A stretch of DNA of 32,490 nt from Bacteroidales bacterium Bact_19 (GTDB lineage Bacteria > Bacteroidota > Bacteroidia > Bacteroidales > ML635J-15): assembly GCA_001603595.1 (NCBI GenBank), contig LUZK01000027.1, positions 1 through 32,490 on the forward strand, written 5' to 3'. The stretch's first letter is position 1, and the number at the start of each line of letters is the position of its first letter. Position numbers and translations under genes: made by a program. This document shows, in pieces, positions 8,846 through 23,689 of this stretch. Below the pieces are notes generated by a model. The model was not told where the DNA came from. It did no database searches and was given only the letters and a program-made list of their open reading frames with translations.

Positions 8846-10369
8846 ATGAAGAGACGGATTTTTAAAATAATGTTTACGATTATTTTTTCTATTATTGTAT
8901 TAAATAATTACAGTCAGGTTAATTTCCCTGATCCACCTAAATTTTTATCTGCATCTGTTTTACCGGAATCTAATCCTACTACTGTTAGAATTTCATGGAA
9001 TCCATCTGATTCAGCAAGTGTTGTCGGTTATATTATTTACAAAATTGTTGGAGGAGTAACTCAAACAATTGGCGAAGTTAACGGAAGATTGACAACGGTT
9101 TTTGATTATACTCAATCTCAAGCTGATAATGCTCCAGAAAGTTTTAGATTAGCCTCTTTTGATGCTAATTATTTTAAAAGCATGATTACCGATCCACATA
9201 AAACAATAAATTTAAAAGTAGAATTTGATAAATGTAAATTGTCAGCAAAATTAACATGGAACGCTTATGAAGGTTGGACGCAGCCTGTAACAAAATATAA
9301 AATTTACCGCCGAACTTCTGAAGGTACATATTCTGTTGTCGGTAGTACAGATTCGAATAATTTGTCATTCGAGAATATTGAATTATTACCTAATACACAG
9401 TATTTTTATTACGTTGAAGCTTTGAATAATTCAGGTCTTACTGCTACTTCAAATTCTGTGAGCATTACAACAGAATCATATTTGCCTCCCGATTATTTAT
9501 ATGCTCATTTTGCTACTGTGGAAAATTCAGAAATTAAAGTAAAGTTTTTGATTTCCGGAAATACTGCAGATGTATCAGAATTTATTATTCAACGAGCATC
9601 AGATCCTGATGGAAATTGGAGCGAAATTCGTTCTTTTGTAAACTCAGGACAACGCGAAATAATTTATACCGATGTTGATGCTGATCCGTCTAAACAAATT
9701 TATTACTATCGAATAGCATCTCTAACACCCTGCGGTAATGTTAGCCTTGTTTCTAATTATGCTTCAAATATTTTGTTACGTACCGAAAACAATGGTTTAG
9801 AACATAAAATTTCATGGACCCAATACAGAGATTGGCAAAATGGGGTTCAAAATTATAAAATTTATCGTGATTTCGATGGAATGCCGGTAGAGGTTGCCAC
9901 AAATAATCCGGGAGATTTGAATTTTAATTACGATATTAGTTGGTATGTAAATTATTGTCAGGATAAAAAGATTCATGTTTCCAATAAATATTGCTACTAT
10001 GTAGAAGCAATAGAAAATTTAGGTCATCCGATTACCACAAACACAGGGATAAGCCGTTCTAACGTAGAATGCGTATTTCATGAACCTGTTGTATGGATGC
10101 CAAATGCTTTTAACAGAAATTCATACGATTCAAAAAATTCCGTTTTTCGACCAATTATTTCTTTTGCACAGGTCGAACCTTATGAATTTATTATTTTTGA
10201 CAAATGGGGTAACGAAATTTTTAAAACAACTCAATCTTTTGATGGGTGGAACGGATTTTTAAATTATGATCCTGCTCCTTCTCAATATTACATTTACTAC
10301 CTTAGGTATTACGACTTCAAAAATAAGGAGCATATCTTAACAGGAAAATTTTTTCTATTTGCCGACTAA
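8846..10369 (+). CDS. Fibronectin-type-III protein with gliding-motility-type (T9SS type B) C-terminal domain
   Basis: 507 residues. The signal peptide (1-23) ends NNYSQ. At least four fibronectin-III-like beta-sandwiches follow, at about 27-110, 120-210, 215-310 and 312-405. They carry the recurrent pattern ISWN/LTWN, then YKIYR, then YYYVEA. The final 90 residues are a type B (CHU_C/gliding motility-associated) sorting domain. It contains VVWMPNAFNRNS (415-426), FIIFDKWGNEIF (448-459), FDGWNG (465-470) and a terminal LTGKFFLFAD. The protein is likely exported by Sec and T9SS and displayed on the surface. Unlike the two other type B cargo genes here, it has no PorP/SprF gene next to it. The short linker before the sorting domain and the lack of enzyme motifs suggest a structural or adhesive role. 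Confidence 0.85.
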   Translation: MKRRIFKIMFTIIFSIIVLNNYSQVNFPDPPKFLSASVLPESNPTTVRISWNPSDSASVVGYIIYKIVGGVTQTIGEVNGRLTTVFDYTQSQADNAPESFRLASFDANYFKSMITDPHKTINLKVEFDKCKLSAKLTWNAYEGWTQPVTKYKIYRRTSEGTYSVVGSTDSNNLSFENIELLPNTQYFYYVEALNNSGLTATSNSVSITTESYLPPDYLYAHFATVENSEIKVKFLISGNTADVSEFIIQRASDPDGNWSEIRSFVNSGQREIIYTDVDADPSKQIYYYRIASLTPCGNVSLVSNYASNILLRTENNGLEHKISWTQYRDWQNGVQNYKIYRDFDGMPVEVATNNPGDLNFNYDISWYVNYCQDKKIHVSNKYCYYVEAIENLGHPITTNTGISRSNVECVFHEPVVWMPNAFNRNSYDSKNSVFRPIISFAQVEPYEFIIFDKWGNEIFKTTQSFDGWNGFLNYDPAPSQYYIYYLRYYDFKNKEHILTGKFFLFAD

Positions 10370-19226: not shown

Positions 19227-19589
19227 TTATCGATTTATTTCAATAAATCTAAATTTTATGTTACAAAGTTTTTCCAATTCCTGCCCACTTTCGTAGATAT
19301 CTTCATCATCTTTTTCGAACTGCCAGATAAATTCAGTATTTTGAAAATCTTTAAGATTTTTTAACATCAGATATAAATACCGGGCAGATCCTGTATTGAA
19401 ATAATCTAACTGAAAATCAATTGTAATATGATTGTTTTGTTTGTAAATATTTTTTATTTCCTCTTCGAGCTTTGAAAAGAAATCAATCGGATTTTCTGGG
19501 GCAATTATTCCAGCGATCTTAACTGTTTTGTTCTCATCGTCGTAAACTACCGACGGTAGTTTGTCTTCTCTTTTAAATATTGTTATCAT
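19227..19589 (-). CDS. SiaC-like regulatory phosphoprotein (DUF1987)
   Basis: 120 residues. PSVVYDDENKTVKIAGIIAP (12-31), the FF-x-KLEEEI helix (38-45) and LDYFNTGSARYLYLML (61-76) match the DUF1987/SiaC family (consensus ..YFNTSSSK..L..L). In Pseudomonas aeruginosa, SiaC is phosphorylated on a Thr in that motif by SiaB and dephosphorylated by SiaA, and unphosphorylated SiaC activates the diguanylate cyclase SiaD. The equivalent Thr here is T66; the following serines are partly replaced (TGSAR). It overlaps the SiaB-like gene upstream by 17 bases, so the two are probably coupled. No SiaA-type phosphatase or GGDEF protein is in the window, so the downstream target is unknown. Confidence 0.75.
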   Translation of the reverse strand: MITIFKREDKLPSVVYDDENKTVKIAGIIAPENPIDFFSKLEEEIKNIYKQNNHITIDFQLDYFNTGSARYLYLMLKNLKDFQNTEFIWQFEKDDEDIYESGQELEKLCNIKFRFIEINR

Positions 19590-20046
19590 AGTTGAAATCT
19601 AAAATTAAACTTAATTTTATAAAATCAGAATCTTCGGTTAATTTTTCCAGAATTATAGGATTTTCAGATTTAATTCTGCATTGGATAAGCCCGTTTCCGG
19701 TGCTCTTTTTATTACTATGCGAAATAATATTCTTTATCTTAATATTTTTAAGTTTTTCAAACGAAAAGGAATTTATTCCTTGAATTTGATTTTTTAGTTT
19801 TAAATAATTTTCGCCACTAATTTTATGTATAAAAACAATTTTGATCGTTTTATTGATAAAAATCTGAACTATTAAATCTTCGTTATTATTATGAATATAA
19901 TTGTTTTGAACGATTTCAAGAATGCAAACAGAAATTTTCTTCCGGATAGACTTTGGAATATCTTCATTAGTTACTAATTCCGAAATTATTGAATTAAGTT
20001 GTGGATAGTTATTTTTATTGATGATTTTTTCGATAATCTTTTTCAT
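19573..20046 (-). CDS. SiaB-like kinase (DUF6272 family, GHKL-type ATPase fold)
   Basis: 157 residues. The helix CILEIVQNNYIHNN (41-54) matches an N-box, with E44 and N48 as candidate Mg-ATP residues. STGNGLIQ (115-122) looks like the glycine-rich ATP-lid of the HATPase_c/anti-sigma-factor kinase fold. Known SiaB proteins phosphorylate SiaC; the gene immediately downstream here is SiaC-like and overlaps by 17 bases. The start shares one base with the dGTPase stop (TAATG), suggesting translational coupling. The protein is shorter and more divergent than typical SiaB, and identity rests on the motifs and the neighbour. Confidence 0.7.
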   Translation of the reverse strand: MKKIIEKIINKNNYPQLNSIISELVTNEDIPKSIRKKISVCILEIVQNNYIHNNNEDLIVQIFINKTIKIVFIHKISGENYLKLKNQIQGINSFSFEKLKNIKIKNIISHSNKKSTGNGLIQCRIKSENPIILEKLTEDSDFIKLSLILDFNYDNNI

Positions 20047-21155
20047 TATAGAAAACTGATTGGTTTAGGAATAGTTATTTGTTTTATAGAATCAAGTGCG
20101 AAAGCATCTGTCATACCTGAAATATAATCTGTTACAATCTGTTTGTAGTTATGATTATCTTTATAAAAATGATATATGTCGTGAATATATCTTCCAAAAT
20201 TTTTATCAAGTTCGATGCAGCTTTCGGAATATTTTTCGAAGTTAAAATTATTTTTATCCAAAAGATTAAACAAGTAATCAAAAAGATTATTAATTATTTT
20301 GTCGCAAAAAATGTCATAACGTTTTAATTCTGGATGGGCATAAATATACTTGTAGTTAAAATGTTTAAGCTTTGTTACAATTTCGTAAGTCAAATCTGAG
20401 AATCCTATTTTTTCGGATTCTTTAGAATTTTCTATTATATCAAGGATTAATTTATTTATAATTTGTCCGTTACGGTCGCCAAGAATTTTTTTCACATCTT
20501 CCGGAATATCTTTATAAGAAATGAATCCTGCAACAATAGCATCTTCAATATCTCTTCCAAGATAAGCAATTTTGTCGGCAAATCTTGTTATAACACCTTC
20601 GTATGAAGACGCCACAACATTTCGATTTTTCACATCATCAAGGTTTTTTACTTTATTGTCAGGTAATAAATATTGTTCGTCTTTTTCGCCATTATGACAA
20701 ATAATGCCGTCTTTTACTCCATAACATAAATTCAGCCCATTTCCTTTGTTTGCGAGATATTCAACCTGACGGTAGGAATTAACTTCGTGAATAAAAGCAT
20801 TATTTCCTCCCAATAATTGATTAAGAGCTTTTTCGCCAGCATGACCAAAAGGTGTGTGCCCTAAATCATGTCCTAACCCGATAGCATAAGCCATGTCCGG
20901 TTCCAAATCTGCTCCGTATTTGTTCAATCCTTTACAAATTGTCGCCGCTATCGTGGCAACATGCAAAACATGTTCAATTCTTGTACAGATATGATCATTT
21001 TCTGGTGCAAAAAAAACTTGAGTTTTATTTTTCAACCTCCTGAAAGCCGTAGAATGAATAATTGCAGTTTGATCTCTAAAATAATCTCCTCTTATATCAG
21101 GATTTCTTGGAATTTTTCTTTTAGTATATTCTTCGGTTTTTAGTGGATTTTTCAT
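20046..21155 (-). CDS. dgt: Deoxyguanosinetriphosphate triphosphohydrolase (dGTPase)
   Basis: This 369-residue HD-domain enzyme hydrolyses dNTPs, typically dGTP, to deoxynucleoside and tripolyphosphate. RDQTAIIHSTAFRRLKNKTQV (27-47) is the conserved N-terminal signature. Metal ligands are H62 (RIEHVLHV), H96-D97 (GLGHDLGHTPFGHAGE) and D194 (TRFADKIAYLGRDIEDA). The length fits the shorter type common outside enterobacteria. It starts three bases after the LOG-family gene and its stop overlaps the SiaB-like start by one base, so it is in the same operon. It maintains nucleotide pools in the cytoplasm. Confidence 0.93.
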   Translation of the reverse strand: MKNPLKTEEYTKRKIPRNPDIRGDYFRDQTAIIHSTAFRRLKNKTQVFFAPENDHICTRIEHVLHVATIAATICKGLNKYGADLEPDMAYAIGLGHDLGHTPFGHAGEKALNQLLGGNNAFIHEVNSYRQVEYLANKGNGLNLCYGVKDGIICHNGEKDEQYLLPDNKVKNLDDVKNRNVVASSYEGVITRFADKIAYLGRDIEDAIVAGFISYKDIPEDVKKILGDRNGQIINKLILDIIENSKESEKIGFSDLTYEIVTKLKHFNYKYIYAHPELKRYDIFCDKIINNLFDYLFNLLDKNNFNFEKYSESCIELDKNFGRYIHDIYHFYKDNHNYKQIVTDYISGMTDAFALDSIKQITIPKPISFL

Positions 21156-21158
21156 TTC

Positions 21159-21737
21159 TTATTGTTTTAAATATTTATCATAAATATTCGTTGGGTTATA
21201 ATTTTTTAGATATCTAAAAACATCATCAATTTGATTTGTAACGTAATACAATTGTTTATAGTCAGGAATTGCAAAGTGTTCGTTGAAGAAAAATTCAAAA
21301 AAATCAATCAGTTTATCAAAAAAATTATTATAATTAAAAATAACAATCGGTTTATAGTGATATTTTAATTGTTTTAATGTAATAATTTCCGAAAGTTCTT
21401 CAAGAGTTCCAAAACCACCGGGTAAGGCTATAAATGCATCCGAATTTTGACGCATAAATTCTTTTCTTTCTTTCATGTCGGTAGTAATAATCAGTCTTTG
21501 GTATTTTTCATCAACAATATTTGGTTTATTTAGTTTTTCAGGAACAACGCCGGTTATTTGACCGCCATTTTCAAAAACAGCTTTCATAAGTCGGCCCATT
21601 ATTCCGATGCTGCCTCCTCCATGAATAAGATTGTAATTCTCAGATGCAAGTTTTTCTCCGAATTTTGTGGCCATTTCATAATAATCCGATCTCAAATCTT
21701 CACTAGAACTGCAAAATACACAAATAGTTTTTTTCAT
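21159..21737 (-). CDS. LOG-family (TIGR00730) nucleotide 5'-monophosphate phosphoribohydrolase
   Basis: 192 residues with the Rossmann-fold motifs of the family. CVFCSSS (6-12) opens the protein. GGGSIGIMGRLM is at 40-51, the MKERK segment at 88-92, and the hallmark PGGFGTLEE at 106-114 binds the nucleotide phosphate. Family members cleave the N-glycosidic bond of AMP-type nucleotides, in plants the cytokinin riboside monophosphates; the bacterial substrate is probably a purine nucleotide. It is the first gene of the LOG-dGTPase-SiaB-SiaC operon, upstream of the AT-rich dnaA leader. Its neighbour suggests a role in nucleotide turnover. Confidence 0.9.
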   Translation of the reverse strand: MKKTICVFCSSSEDLRSDYYEMATKFGEKLASENYNLIHGGGSIGIMGRLMKAVFENGGQITGVVPEKLNKPNIVDEKYQRLIITTDMKERKEFMRQNSDAFIALPGGFGTLEELSEIITLKQLKYHYKPIVIFNYNNFFDKLIDFFEFFFNEHFAIPDYKQLYYVTNQIDDVFRYLKNYNPTNIYDKYLKQ

Positions 21738-22267: not shown

Positions 22268-23689
22268 ATGGTGAATAGAAGTGTTGAAATATGGGAAAAG
22301 TGTCTCCAGATAATAAGGGACAATGTTTCTAAGCATAGTTTCCGTACCTGGTTTGAACCCATAGTACCATTGGATTTTAAGAATAACACTCTAACGATTC
22401 AGGTTCCAAGCACATTTTTTTATGAATTTCTTGAAGAACAATTTCTTGATTTATTGAAAAAAACTCTCCATAAAGTAATTGGACCTGATGCAAAATTAGA
22501 GTATCATGTATTGTTGGAAAGTTCATCGGATCGTCCTCAAACTATAAAACTTCCGGGCGGAGACAGGCCAAATCTGATAAATAAACCAATACAGATGCCA
22601 ATGAATTTGGATCCAGAGGCTATTGTAAATCCATTTATTATTCCCGGAATAAAAAAATTAAATGTAGATCCGCATCTAAACATTGATTATAATTTTGATA
22701 ATTTTGTTGAAGGTGAATGTAATAGATTAGCCAGATCAGCAGGATATGCAGTTGCTCAAAATCCTGGAGGTACAGCTTTCAATCCTCTTTTTATATATGG
22801 AGGCTCAGGCCTTGGTAAAACTCATCTCGCTCATGCAATTGGTATTGAAGTAAAAAAATTACATACCGAGAAAGTAGTTCTCTATGTTGATGCAAATAAA
22901 TTTTTGACACAATACATGGAGGCCACAAGAAATAACAATAGAAATGATTTCATTCATTTCTATCAAATGATTGATGTTTTGATTGTTGATGATGTTCAGT
23001 ATTTCTCAAAGAAAGAAGGAACTCAGGAAGTTTTCTTCCATATCTTTAATCATCTCCATCAACACGGAAAACAGCTTATACTTACTTCTGATAAGCCACC
23101 TGTTGAACTTAATGGGATGGAACAAAGACTACTTAGCAGGTTTAAATGGGGACTTTCGGCCGAACTGACCGAGCCGGATTTTGATACAAGAATCAGAATA
23201 CTCAAAAAGAAAACATATAAAGACGGTATTCAAATTAAAGAAGAAATACTTGAATATATCGCTTCTCATATTACCAATAACATAAGAGAACTTGAAGGAG
23301 CATTGGTTTCTCTGCTTGCACAGGCAACTTTAAACAAAAAAGAAATTACGATTGATCTTGCTAAGGATATGATTGACAAGCTCGTGAAAAGTACTCGCAG
23401 AGAAATATCCATTGAATATATTCAAAAAGTTGTTTGTAATTATTTCCAATTACCTGTTGAAGTATTATCATCCAAGACTCGTAAAAGAGAAATTGTTCAG
23501 GCTCGTCAGATTGCAATGTATTTTGCAAAAAATATGACAAAAGCCTCTTTAGCTTCAATAGGTGCTACCATTGGAGGAAAAGACCATGCCACTGTTCTAC
23601 ACGCCTGTAAAACTGTAAATAATCTTTTAGAAACCGACAAAAGGTTTAAAGAAGACTTAATGGAGATTGAAAAACGGTTGAAAATGTAA
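22268..23689 (+). CDS. dnaA: Chromosomal replication initiator DnaA
   Basis: 473 residues. The domain I oligomerisation region (about 5-80, with WEKCLQII and FRTWFEPI) is followed by a variable linker. The AAA+ domain III (about 135-360) has Walker A YGGSGLGKT (177-185), Walker B VLIVDDVQ (237-244), the sensor-1 region QLILTSDKPP (269-278) and the arginine-finger stretch EQRLLSRF (285-292). Domain IV (about 380-473) carries the DnaA-box recognition signature GGKDHATVLHAC (437-447 region). The protein binds DnaA boxes and unwinds oriC. ATG at 22268 fits the family N-terminus. It heads a compact plus-strand run of five genes. Confidence 0.97.
   Translation: MVNRSVEIWEKCLQIIRDNVSKHSFRTWFEPIVPLDFKNNTLTIQVPSTFFYEFLEEQFLDLLKKTLHKVIGPDAKLEYHVLLESSSDRPQTIKLPGGDRPNLINKPIQMPMNLDPEAIVNPFIIPGIKKLNVDPHLNIDYNFDNFVEGECNRLARSAGYAVAQNPGGTAFNPLFIYGGSGLGKTHLAHAIGIEVKKLHTEKVVLYVDANKFLTQYMEATRNNNRNDFIHFYQMIDVLIVDDVQYFSKKEGTQEVFFHIFNHLHQHGKQLILTSDKPPVELNGMEQRLLSRFKWGLSAELTEPDFDTRIRILKKKTYKDGIQIKEEILEYIASHITNNIRELEGALVSLLAQATLNKKEITIDLAKDMIDKLVKSTRREISIEYIQKVVCNYFQLPVEVLSSKTRKREIVQARQIAMYFAKNMTKASLASIGATIGGKDHATVLHACKTVNNLLETDKRFKEDLMEIEKRLKM

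Follow-up and report, generated by a model that had tools for sequence, protein, structure and literature searches.

We find that, within a single family of uncultured bacteria from gut and sediment, the gene for an HD-domain dGTPase is followed directly by a kinase-phosphoprotein pair related to SiaB and SiaC: among the 31 family genomes examined, 25 carry a dGTPase of the type studied here, and in 24 of these 25 the genes stand in the order dGTPase-SiaB-SiaC. Judged from sequence, this most likely represents a diverged SiaB/SiaC switch that is co-expressed with the dGTPase and perhaps tunes it. A dGTPase destroys a DNA building block, and the linkage hints at a possible control of DNA precursors. 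A search of a library of open-access papers returned one paper that mentions DUF1987, and no report of a SiaC-dGTPase link, of DUF6272, or of a dGTPase with partner-switching. The locus comes from the window, by which we mean the whole stretch of DNA analysed (32,490 nucleotides); its contig belongs to a genome of 3.07 Mb in 186 contigs that is 98.75% complete.

The four-gene locus

The genes of the locus, all on the minus strand, are the following.

21159..21737, minus strand: LOG-type gene with the 'Lysine_decarbox' fold (PF03641 128.7 bits; TIGR00730 171.1 bits, cut-off 96.35)
20046..21155, minus strand: dGTPase (HD-domain dGTP triphosphohydrolase; TIGR01353 189.4 bits, cut-off 152.35)
19573..20046, minus strand: SiaB-like GHKL kinase (DUF6272), 157 aa (PF19788 31.5 bits, cut-off 26.6)
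19227..19589, minus strand: SiaC-like regulatory phosphoprotein (DUF1987), 120 aa (PF09345 77.9 bits, cut-off 24.5)

The spacings are 3 bases between LOG and dGTPase, -1 between dGTPase and SiaB, and -17 between SiaB and SiaC, and the arrangement LOG-dgt-siaB-siaC is that of a single predicted four-gene operon. The initial annotation had described most of this, and its description holds: the 17-base overlap of the SiaC-like and SiaB-like genes is there in the ORF coordinates, the dGTPase stop and the SiaB start have one base in common in the sequence TAATG, both members of the pair lie above their Pfam cut-offs in a profile search, and the nucleotide enzymes that it placed in the operon include a dGTPase above its family cut-off (TIGR01353). 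The product of the LOG-type gene is a possible nucleotide phosphoribohydrolase. Promoter signals are close to what is expected by chance and so carry no information, with 22 sigma-70-like sites (shuffled mean 24.8) and 138 matches to a Bacteroidota-type promoter motif (131 expected). There are two terminator-like sites (shuffled mean 0.8), both on the plus strand within SiaC, opposite to the operon. Upstream of the operon lies a divergent dnaA (22268-23689), an arrangement also seen in the g2 genome G026.

Identity and conservation of the proteins

The predicted model of SiaB (pLDDT 88.8) has as its best solved match chain 6kko_A of the P. aeruginosa SiaB-SiaC complex (Z 17.1, rmsd 2.4, 143 residues aligned). 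Foldseek gives the same match at E 1.9e-6, and the family SiaB profile finds 6kko_A by sequence as well (E 2.3e-5); behind it come SpoIIAB 1th8_A and 8ih8_C at Z 12.2. Both proteins of the pair nevertheless score below the NCBI models of the narrower groups, SiaB at 17.9 vs 85 bits for the subfamily model NF038262 (SiaB_fam_kinase) and SiaC at 38.1 vs 150 bits for the equivalog model NF038265 (P. aeruginosa SiaC). In four pairwise comparisons dN/dS is 0.17-0.26 for SiaB and 0.07-0.15 for SiaC, which indicates purifying selection on both genes.

SiaC carries the feature YxNT of its family (PF09345), with the Thr where helix 2 begins. The candidate phospho-Thr, T66, sits in YFNTGSAR. Of the 20 family rows in the alignment, 19 have a Thr at this position and L059 has Ser; all 24 dgt-linked rows have the Thr, so the initial annotation was right that the candidate site is kept. 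Its second observation at this place, that the NTSSSK motif is changed to NTGSAR, stands as regards the letters and falls as regards a special change, since such variation is ordinary within the linked clade: counted as six residues from the Phe, the 24 linked SiaC proteins read FNTSSA in 13 cases, FNTGAA in eight, FNTGSA in two and FNTGAT in one. The same variation led us to reject the idea that NTGSAR marks linkage to dgt.

For the kinase motifs of SiaB we aligned 48 SiaB rows together with the 6kko fragment, 49 in all. The catalytic Glu (E44) and the N-box Asn (N48) are present in 49 of 49 rows. The Asn of the TGN motif, presumably the residue of the GHKL G1 box that contacts the base, behaves quite differently: it is found in 0 of the 23 rows of the window's genus vs 26 of the 26 others (20 from other Bacteroidales, two from g2, one dgt-linked row from g3, two solitary family genes and Pseudomonas). 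In its place the genus rows have R (11), Q (nine), H (two; the window has H74) or E (one). This Asn is a feature noticed in the present alignment and does not come from a published family criterion. The loss marks the genus rather than the dgt link as such, given that the Asn is retained in the g3 row, which is linked. The Gly/Ala directly before GxG is also replaced in all 23 genus rows, a replacement that the rows of g2 and g3 share. As read from the alignment, the loss of the TGN Asn in SiaB of the window's genus would be a new observation, and it could reflect an altered nucleotide pocket or a lost kinase activity.

On the side of the enzyme, residues H62, H96-D97 and D194, presumably the HD-motif ligands of the dGTPase, are invariant in 17 aligned rows, and a profile match ties the protein to PDB 2dqb at E 3.2e-33. 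Its predicted model, with a pLDDT of 56, is too poor for surface mapping. In the dGTPase tree a single branch, with support 85/67 and present in 86% of 200 bootstrap trees, sets the linked enzymes apart from the rest, and next to this group lies the dGTPase of G028, on a very long branch of 0.95.

Linkage within the family

SiaC and SiaB are each matched in 28 of the 31 family genomes (for SiaC, G010 has a mere fragment at a contig end), and each is single in the 28 genomes where it occurs, with a second SiaC match of G024 lying below the cut-off. SiaB scores range from 122 to 179 bits in 26 family genomes and come to 46 in G029 and 37 in G028. Of the 24 linked genomes, 23 belong to the window's genus and the remaining one, G027, to a second. 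The LOG gene precedes dgt in 21 linked loci; in the other three, which belong to at least two lineages of the tree, LOG is absent and dgt-siaB-siaC is kept. The spacing between dGTPase and SiaB runs from -17 to +2 bases in 23 loci and is +102 in G012, where the SiaB match (L044:9232-9697, minus strand) is interrupted by an in-frame TAA and has a late start to its open frame, either through damage or through an assembly error. Downstream of the trio the surroundings vary: in 13 of 22 judgeable dgt loci the gene after SiaC is not one found around the window's operon, a count in which L044 is unscored (by eye, its gene after SiaC is common to the window's neighbourhood) and from which L058, which ends at a contig end, is left out. 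In G010 (L042) only the last part of SiaC is present, at the edge of the contig, and this fragment counts neither for nor against linkage.

The remaining family genomes show other arrangements. In G028, of a third genus, the dGTPase is followed by a 92-aa ORF and then by SiaC, as read across two contigs whose ends have 127 bases in common. This ORF (L059:61-339), which contains Cys and has a hydrophobic end, stands in the place of SiaB; the SiaC behind it reads YFNSSSAR, with Ser replacing Thr, and the SiaB-like gene of G028 is located elsewhere in the genome. The g2 genomes G026 and G030 have LOG-SiaB-SiaC with no dgt in between and no dgt of the window's type elsewhere; G026 has another type of dGTPase elsewhere, and G030 (83% complete) has no dGTPase match. 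From this we draw that the pair has work to do without the dGTPase and that an exclusive dedication to it is unlikely. G029 has a SiaB-like gene alone, with neither SiaC nor a dGTPase of the window's type, and G008 (73% complete) and G021 (80% complete) have no match to SiaC, SiaB or dGTPase.

Linkage outside the family

Scanning genome contigs with the dGTPase alignment, we considered the best 80 loci from a larger number of dgt loci. SiaB-SiaC lies behind the dGTPase in 16 of them (69-77% identity), all on contigs that, judged by length, are already within the 24 and so add no cases, and is missing from the other 64 (49-65%). One of these 64, L090, whose contig ends 77 bases past dgt, we take as G028 on its size, coordinates, SiaC E-value and the 127 common end bases, which leaves 63 non-family loci. 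SiaB-SiaC is found behind the dGTPase in 0 of these 63 listed loci, 61 of which are judgeable (at least 673 bases after dgt); L099 and L111, with fewer than 150 bases after dgt, leave no room to judge. Measured by the test that the initial annotation set, conservation of the adjacency to dgt beyond close relatives, the link is confined to one family: 23 genomes of the genus keep it, often among different flanking genes, as does a single genome of a second genus, and it is seen at none of the 63 loci outside the family. Linkage in one family may reflect one ancestral event.

SiaB of the window's type is equally confined. With at most nine candidates scored per genome, none was found outside the family among 393 genomes of the order (best score 75.9 bits), and in a search of 395 genomes of the phylum, again with at most nine candidates scored per genome, E 1e-19 was reached by the window's genome alone. 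At L091 there is a LOG-dGTPase pair without SiaB-SiaC, in a genome whose eight SiaC copies set it apart from every family genome, and the LOG-dgt pair is thus probably older than the link. SiaC was counted in 39 genomes, corresponding to 39 of the 64 unlinked loci (the loci left out are mostly labelled Elusimicrobia). One of the 39 is G028, and the other 38 are non-family genomes that carry this type of dGTPase. In 15 of these SiaC is not matched and the dGTPase lives without it; the other 23 have between 1 and 23 SiaC matches. In other Bacteroidales SiaC reaches up to 20 or 23 copies per genome.

Some of the pairs in other Bacteroidales are joined in one frame. Single ORFs of 504-519 aa hold two SiaB-like stretches, recognised by eye, and one SiaC domain, and would represent a natural kinase-kinase-substrate fusion; for G046:C210, likewise from other Bacteroidales, two SiaB hits per frame are listed. 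The fusion ORFs are the following.

L203:2322-3881: SiaB-SiaB-SiaC fusion ORF
L204:1068-2585: SiaB-SiaB-SiaC fusion ORF
L206:1913-3439: SiaB-SiaB-SiaC fusion ORF
L207:2206-3720: SiaB-SiaB-SiaC fusion ORF
L208:2281-3837: SiaB-SiaB-SiaC fusion ORF

Among the seven longer SiaC ORFs inspected for Rosetta-stone fusions, these five are joined by one SiaB-SiaC fusion (L063) and by one ORF with an unidentified tail (L205), and no enzyme partner appears. The L063 fusion (8924-9799, minus strand; 292 aa) adjoins a separate SiaC gene. Two other SiaB-SiaC pairs adjoin a TerB-ABC-ABC2 exporter of about 1030 aa (L064:5692-8769 and L071:8844-11951, both plus strand; Pfam was run on these two), and genes of similar length stand in several other Bacteroidales SiaB-SiaC loci. 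L064 also carries a THUMP methyltransferase.

Cyclase and phosphatase

In Pseudomonas, according to PMC7647112 and PMC8457831, SiaB phosphorylates SiaC on T68, SiaA removes the phosphate, and unphosphorylated SiaC binds the stalk of SiaD and activates it, the whole being a partner-switch system. A GGDEF search of the window's whole genome (98.75% complete) found none, and the same search was empty in all 31 family genomes and positive in 8 of 14 control genomes. The initial annotation had noted the lack of a diguanylate cyclase nearby; the absence thus extends well past the neighbourhood that it spoke of. With no GGDEF match in these 31 genomes, we reject the diguanylate cyclase, the Pseudomonas output, as a target for this family.

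SiaC and SiaB are each present once in the window's genome, together with two SpoIIE phosphatases, and the operon has no SiaA-type phosphatase. One of the two SpoIIE proteins carries TPR repeats and is our top candidate for the role of SiaA. SpoIIE matches are present in 29 of 31 family genomes, and one of these, G029, lacks a SiaC match, for which reason the TPR-SpoIIE protein is a tentative candidate. The second SpoIIE protein (L062:8087-9295, plus strand; 402 aa) lies directly behind a 616-aa ORF that starts with a ferredoxin-like Cys motif and that, by eye, looks linked to redox enzymes.

A possible switch on the dGTPase and its alternatives

The reading that we put forward is that the phosphorylation state of SiaC sets dGTPase activity through a partner switch encoded in the operon, and we hold it tentatively, giving it somewhat less than an even chance. 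SiaB, as a GHKL Ser/Thr kinase, and SiaC, as a STAS-like phosphoprotein, would form a diverged SiaABC-type partner switch. By analogy with the homologues, SiaB would phosphorylate SiaC on T66 and a PP2C-type phosphatase encoded elsewhere, for which the TPR-SpoIIE protein is the best candidate, would remove the phosphate. Unphosphorylated SiaC would then bind and tune a protein target, presumably a product of the operon, with the dGTPase first in line, on gene order alone, and LOG second, and whether SiaC is phosphorylated would thereby determine the breakdown of dGTP. We place the dGTPase first because it is adjacent and conserved and because no diguanylate cyclase was found. The authors of PMC8457831 suggest that DUF1987 proteins commonly modulate adjacent proteins. 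If SiaC does set dGTPase activity, a phospho-switch would be acting directly on the supply of DNA precursors.

We give roughly equal weight to a target outside the operon. Here the SiaB/SiaC switch would work on, for instance, a sigma/anti-sigma factor or a membrane protein, and would merely be co-expressed with a growth-linked LOG-dgt pair. This would account for the g2 genomes, in which LOG-SiaB-SiaC does without dgt, and for the many SiaC copies of other Bacteroidales, which lie beside other genes in the loci looked at; PMC7647112 and PMC8457831 also describe SiaABC as a partner switch, a kind of system whose targets vary. What speaks for the dGTPase instead is a linkage in 24 of 25 genomes that persists despite varied flanks and despite the absence of LOG from three loci. 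The same persistence bears on the view that no regulatory relation exists and that the order reflects ordinary inheritance of an operon by descent, held together by overlapping start and stop codons. We regard that view as unlikely: the linkage belongs to one family and one dgt group, and overlapping genes are hard to split, but LOG is missing from three loci, of at least two lineages, and the downstream genes differ in 13 of 22 while the trio stays, and the dN/dS values show that SiaB and SiaC are retained.

The change in SiaB allows further readings. Since the Asn is lost, kinase activity may be lost with it, and SiaB of the genus could be a pseudokinase that holds SiaC, making this a switch by binding rather than by phosphorylation. 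The Asn kept in 26 of 26 other SiaB rows gives way to R, Q, H or E in every one of the 23 genus rows, which fits this, as does the Gly/Ala before GxG, replaced in those rows and also in those of g2 and g3; the catalytic Glu and N-box Asn kept in 49 of 49 rows and the Thr kept in 24 of 24 linked SiaC proteins do not, and we consider it distinctly unlikely. That a changed base pocket instead reads a guanine or deoxy-nucleotide (e.g. dGTP) and not ATP, with SiaB phosphorylating SiaC to match and SiaC raising or lowering dGTPase activity in a feedback on the dGTP pool, strikes us as a long shot. Least probable, with very little in its favour, is an anti-phage device in which the dGTPase starves the phage of dGTP and SiaB/SiaC restrain it until infection. 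The dGTPase does match a PADLOC dGTPase model (204.6 bits), which is expected to match dGTPases broadly; SiaB and SiaC match no PADLOC model, and a dgt link kept in 24 of 25 family genomes is not patchy. Returning to the proposed switch on the dGTPase, a single-copy, cyclase-free pair tied to one enzyme makes a simple test case for the targets of SiaC, and to our knowledge none is known outside Pseudomonas.

Comparison with known systems

The closest known relative is SiaABCD of P. aeruginosa (6kko for SiaB-SiaC; 7e6g for SiaC-SiaD), with which the locus shares the SiaB fold with its catalytic Glu and N-box Asn, a SiaC of the same family with the Thr of the phospho-site, and the adjacency of siaB and siaC. 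In contrast to that system, no SiaD or GGDEF was found and no SiaA lies in the operon, the partners being LOG and the dGTPase; its pair lies below the NCBI equivalog and subfamily cut-offs, and the TGN Asn is lost. SpoIIAB/SpoIIAA and RsbW/RsbV share the fold class of SiaB (SpoIIAB 1th8_A at Z 12.2, rmsd 3.0, 124 aligned; RsbW 6m36 at Z 11.1), but the match to SiaB of 6kko, at Z 17.1, is clearly the better one. The multi-copy SiaB/SiaC pairs of other Bacteroidales belong to the same two families, and siaB precedes siaC in the 11 of their loci that were retrieved, whereas the 20 SiaB rows compared keep the Asn and GxGxG. Compared with HD-domain dGTPases at large (TIGR01353; 2dqb), the enzyme of the window passes the cut-off and its HD residues are invariant in the clade, and what sets it apart is that, among the loci examined, SiaB/SiaC follow it only in the window's family. 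Taken by its sequence, the pair in the window is a family-specific SiaB/SiaC variant and not a member of a full SiaABCD system.
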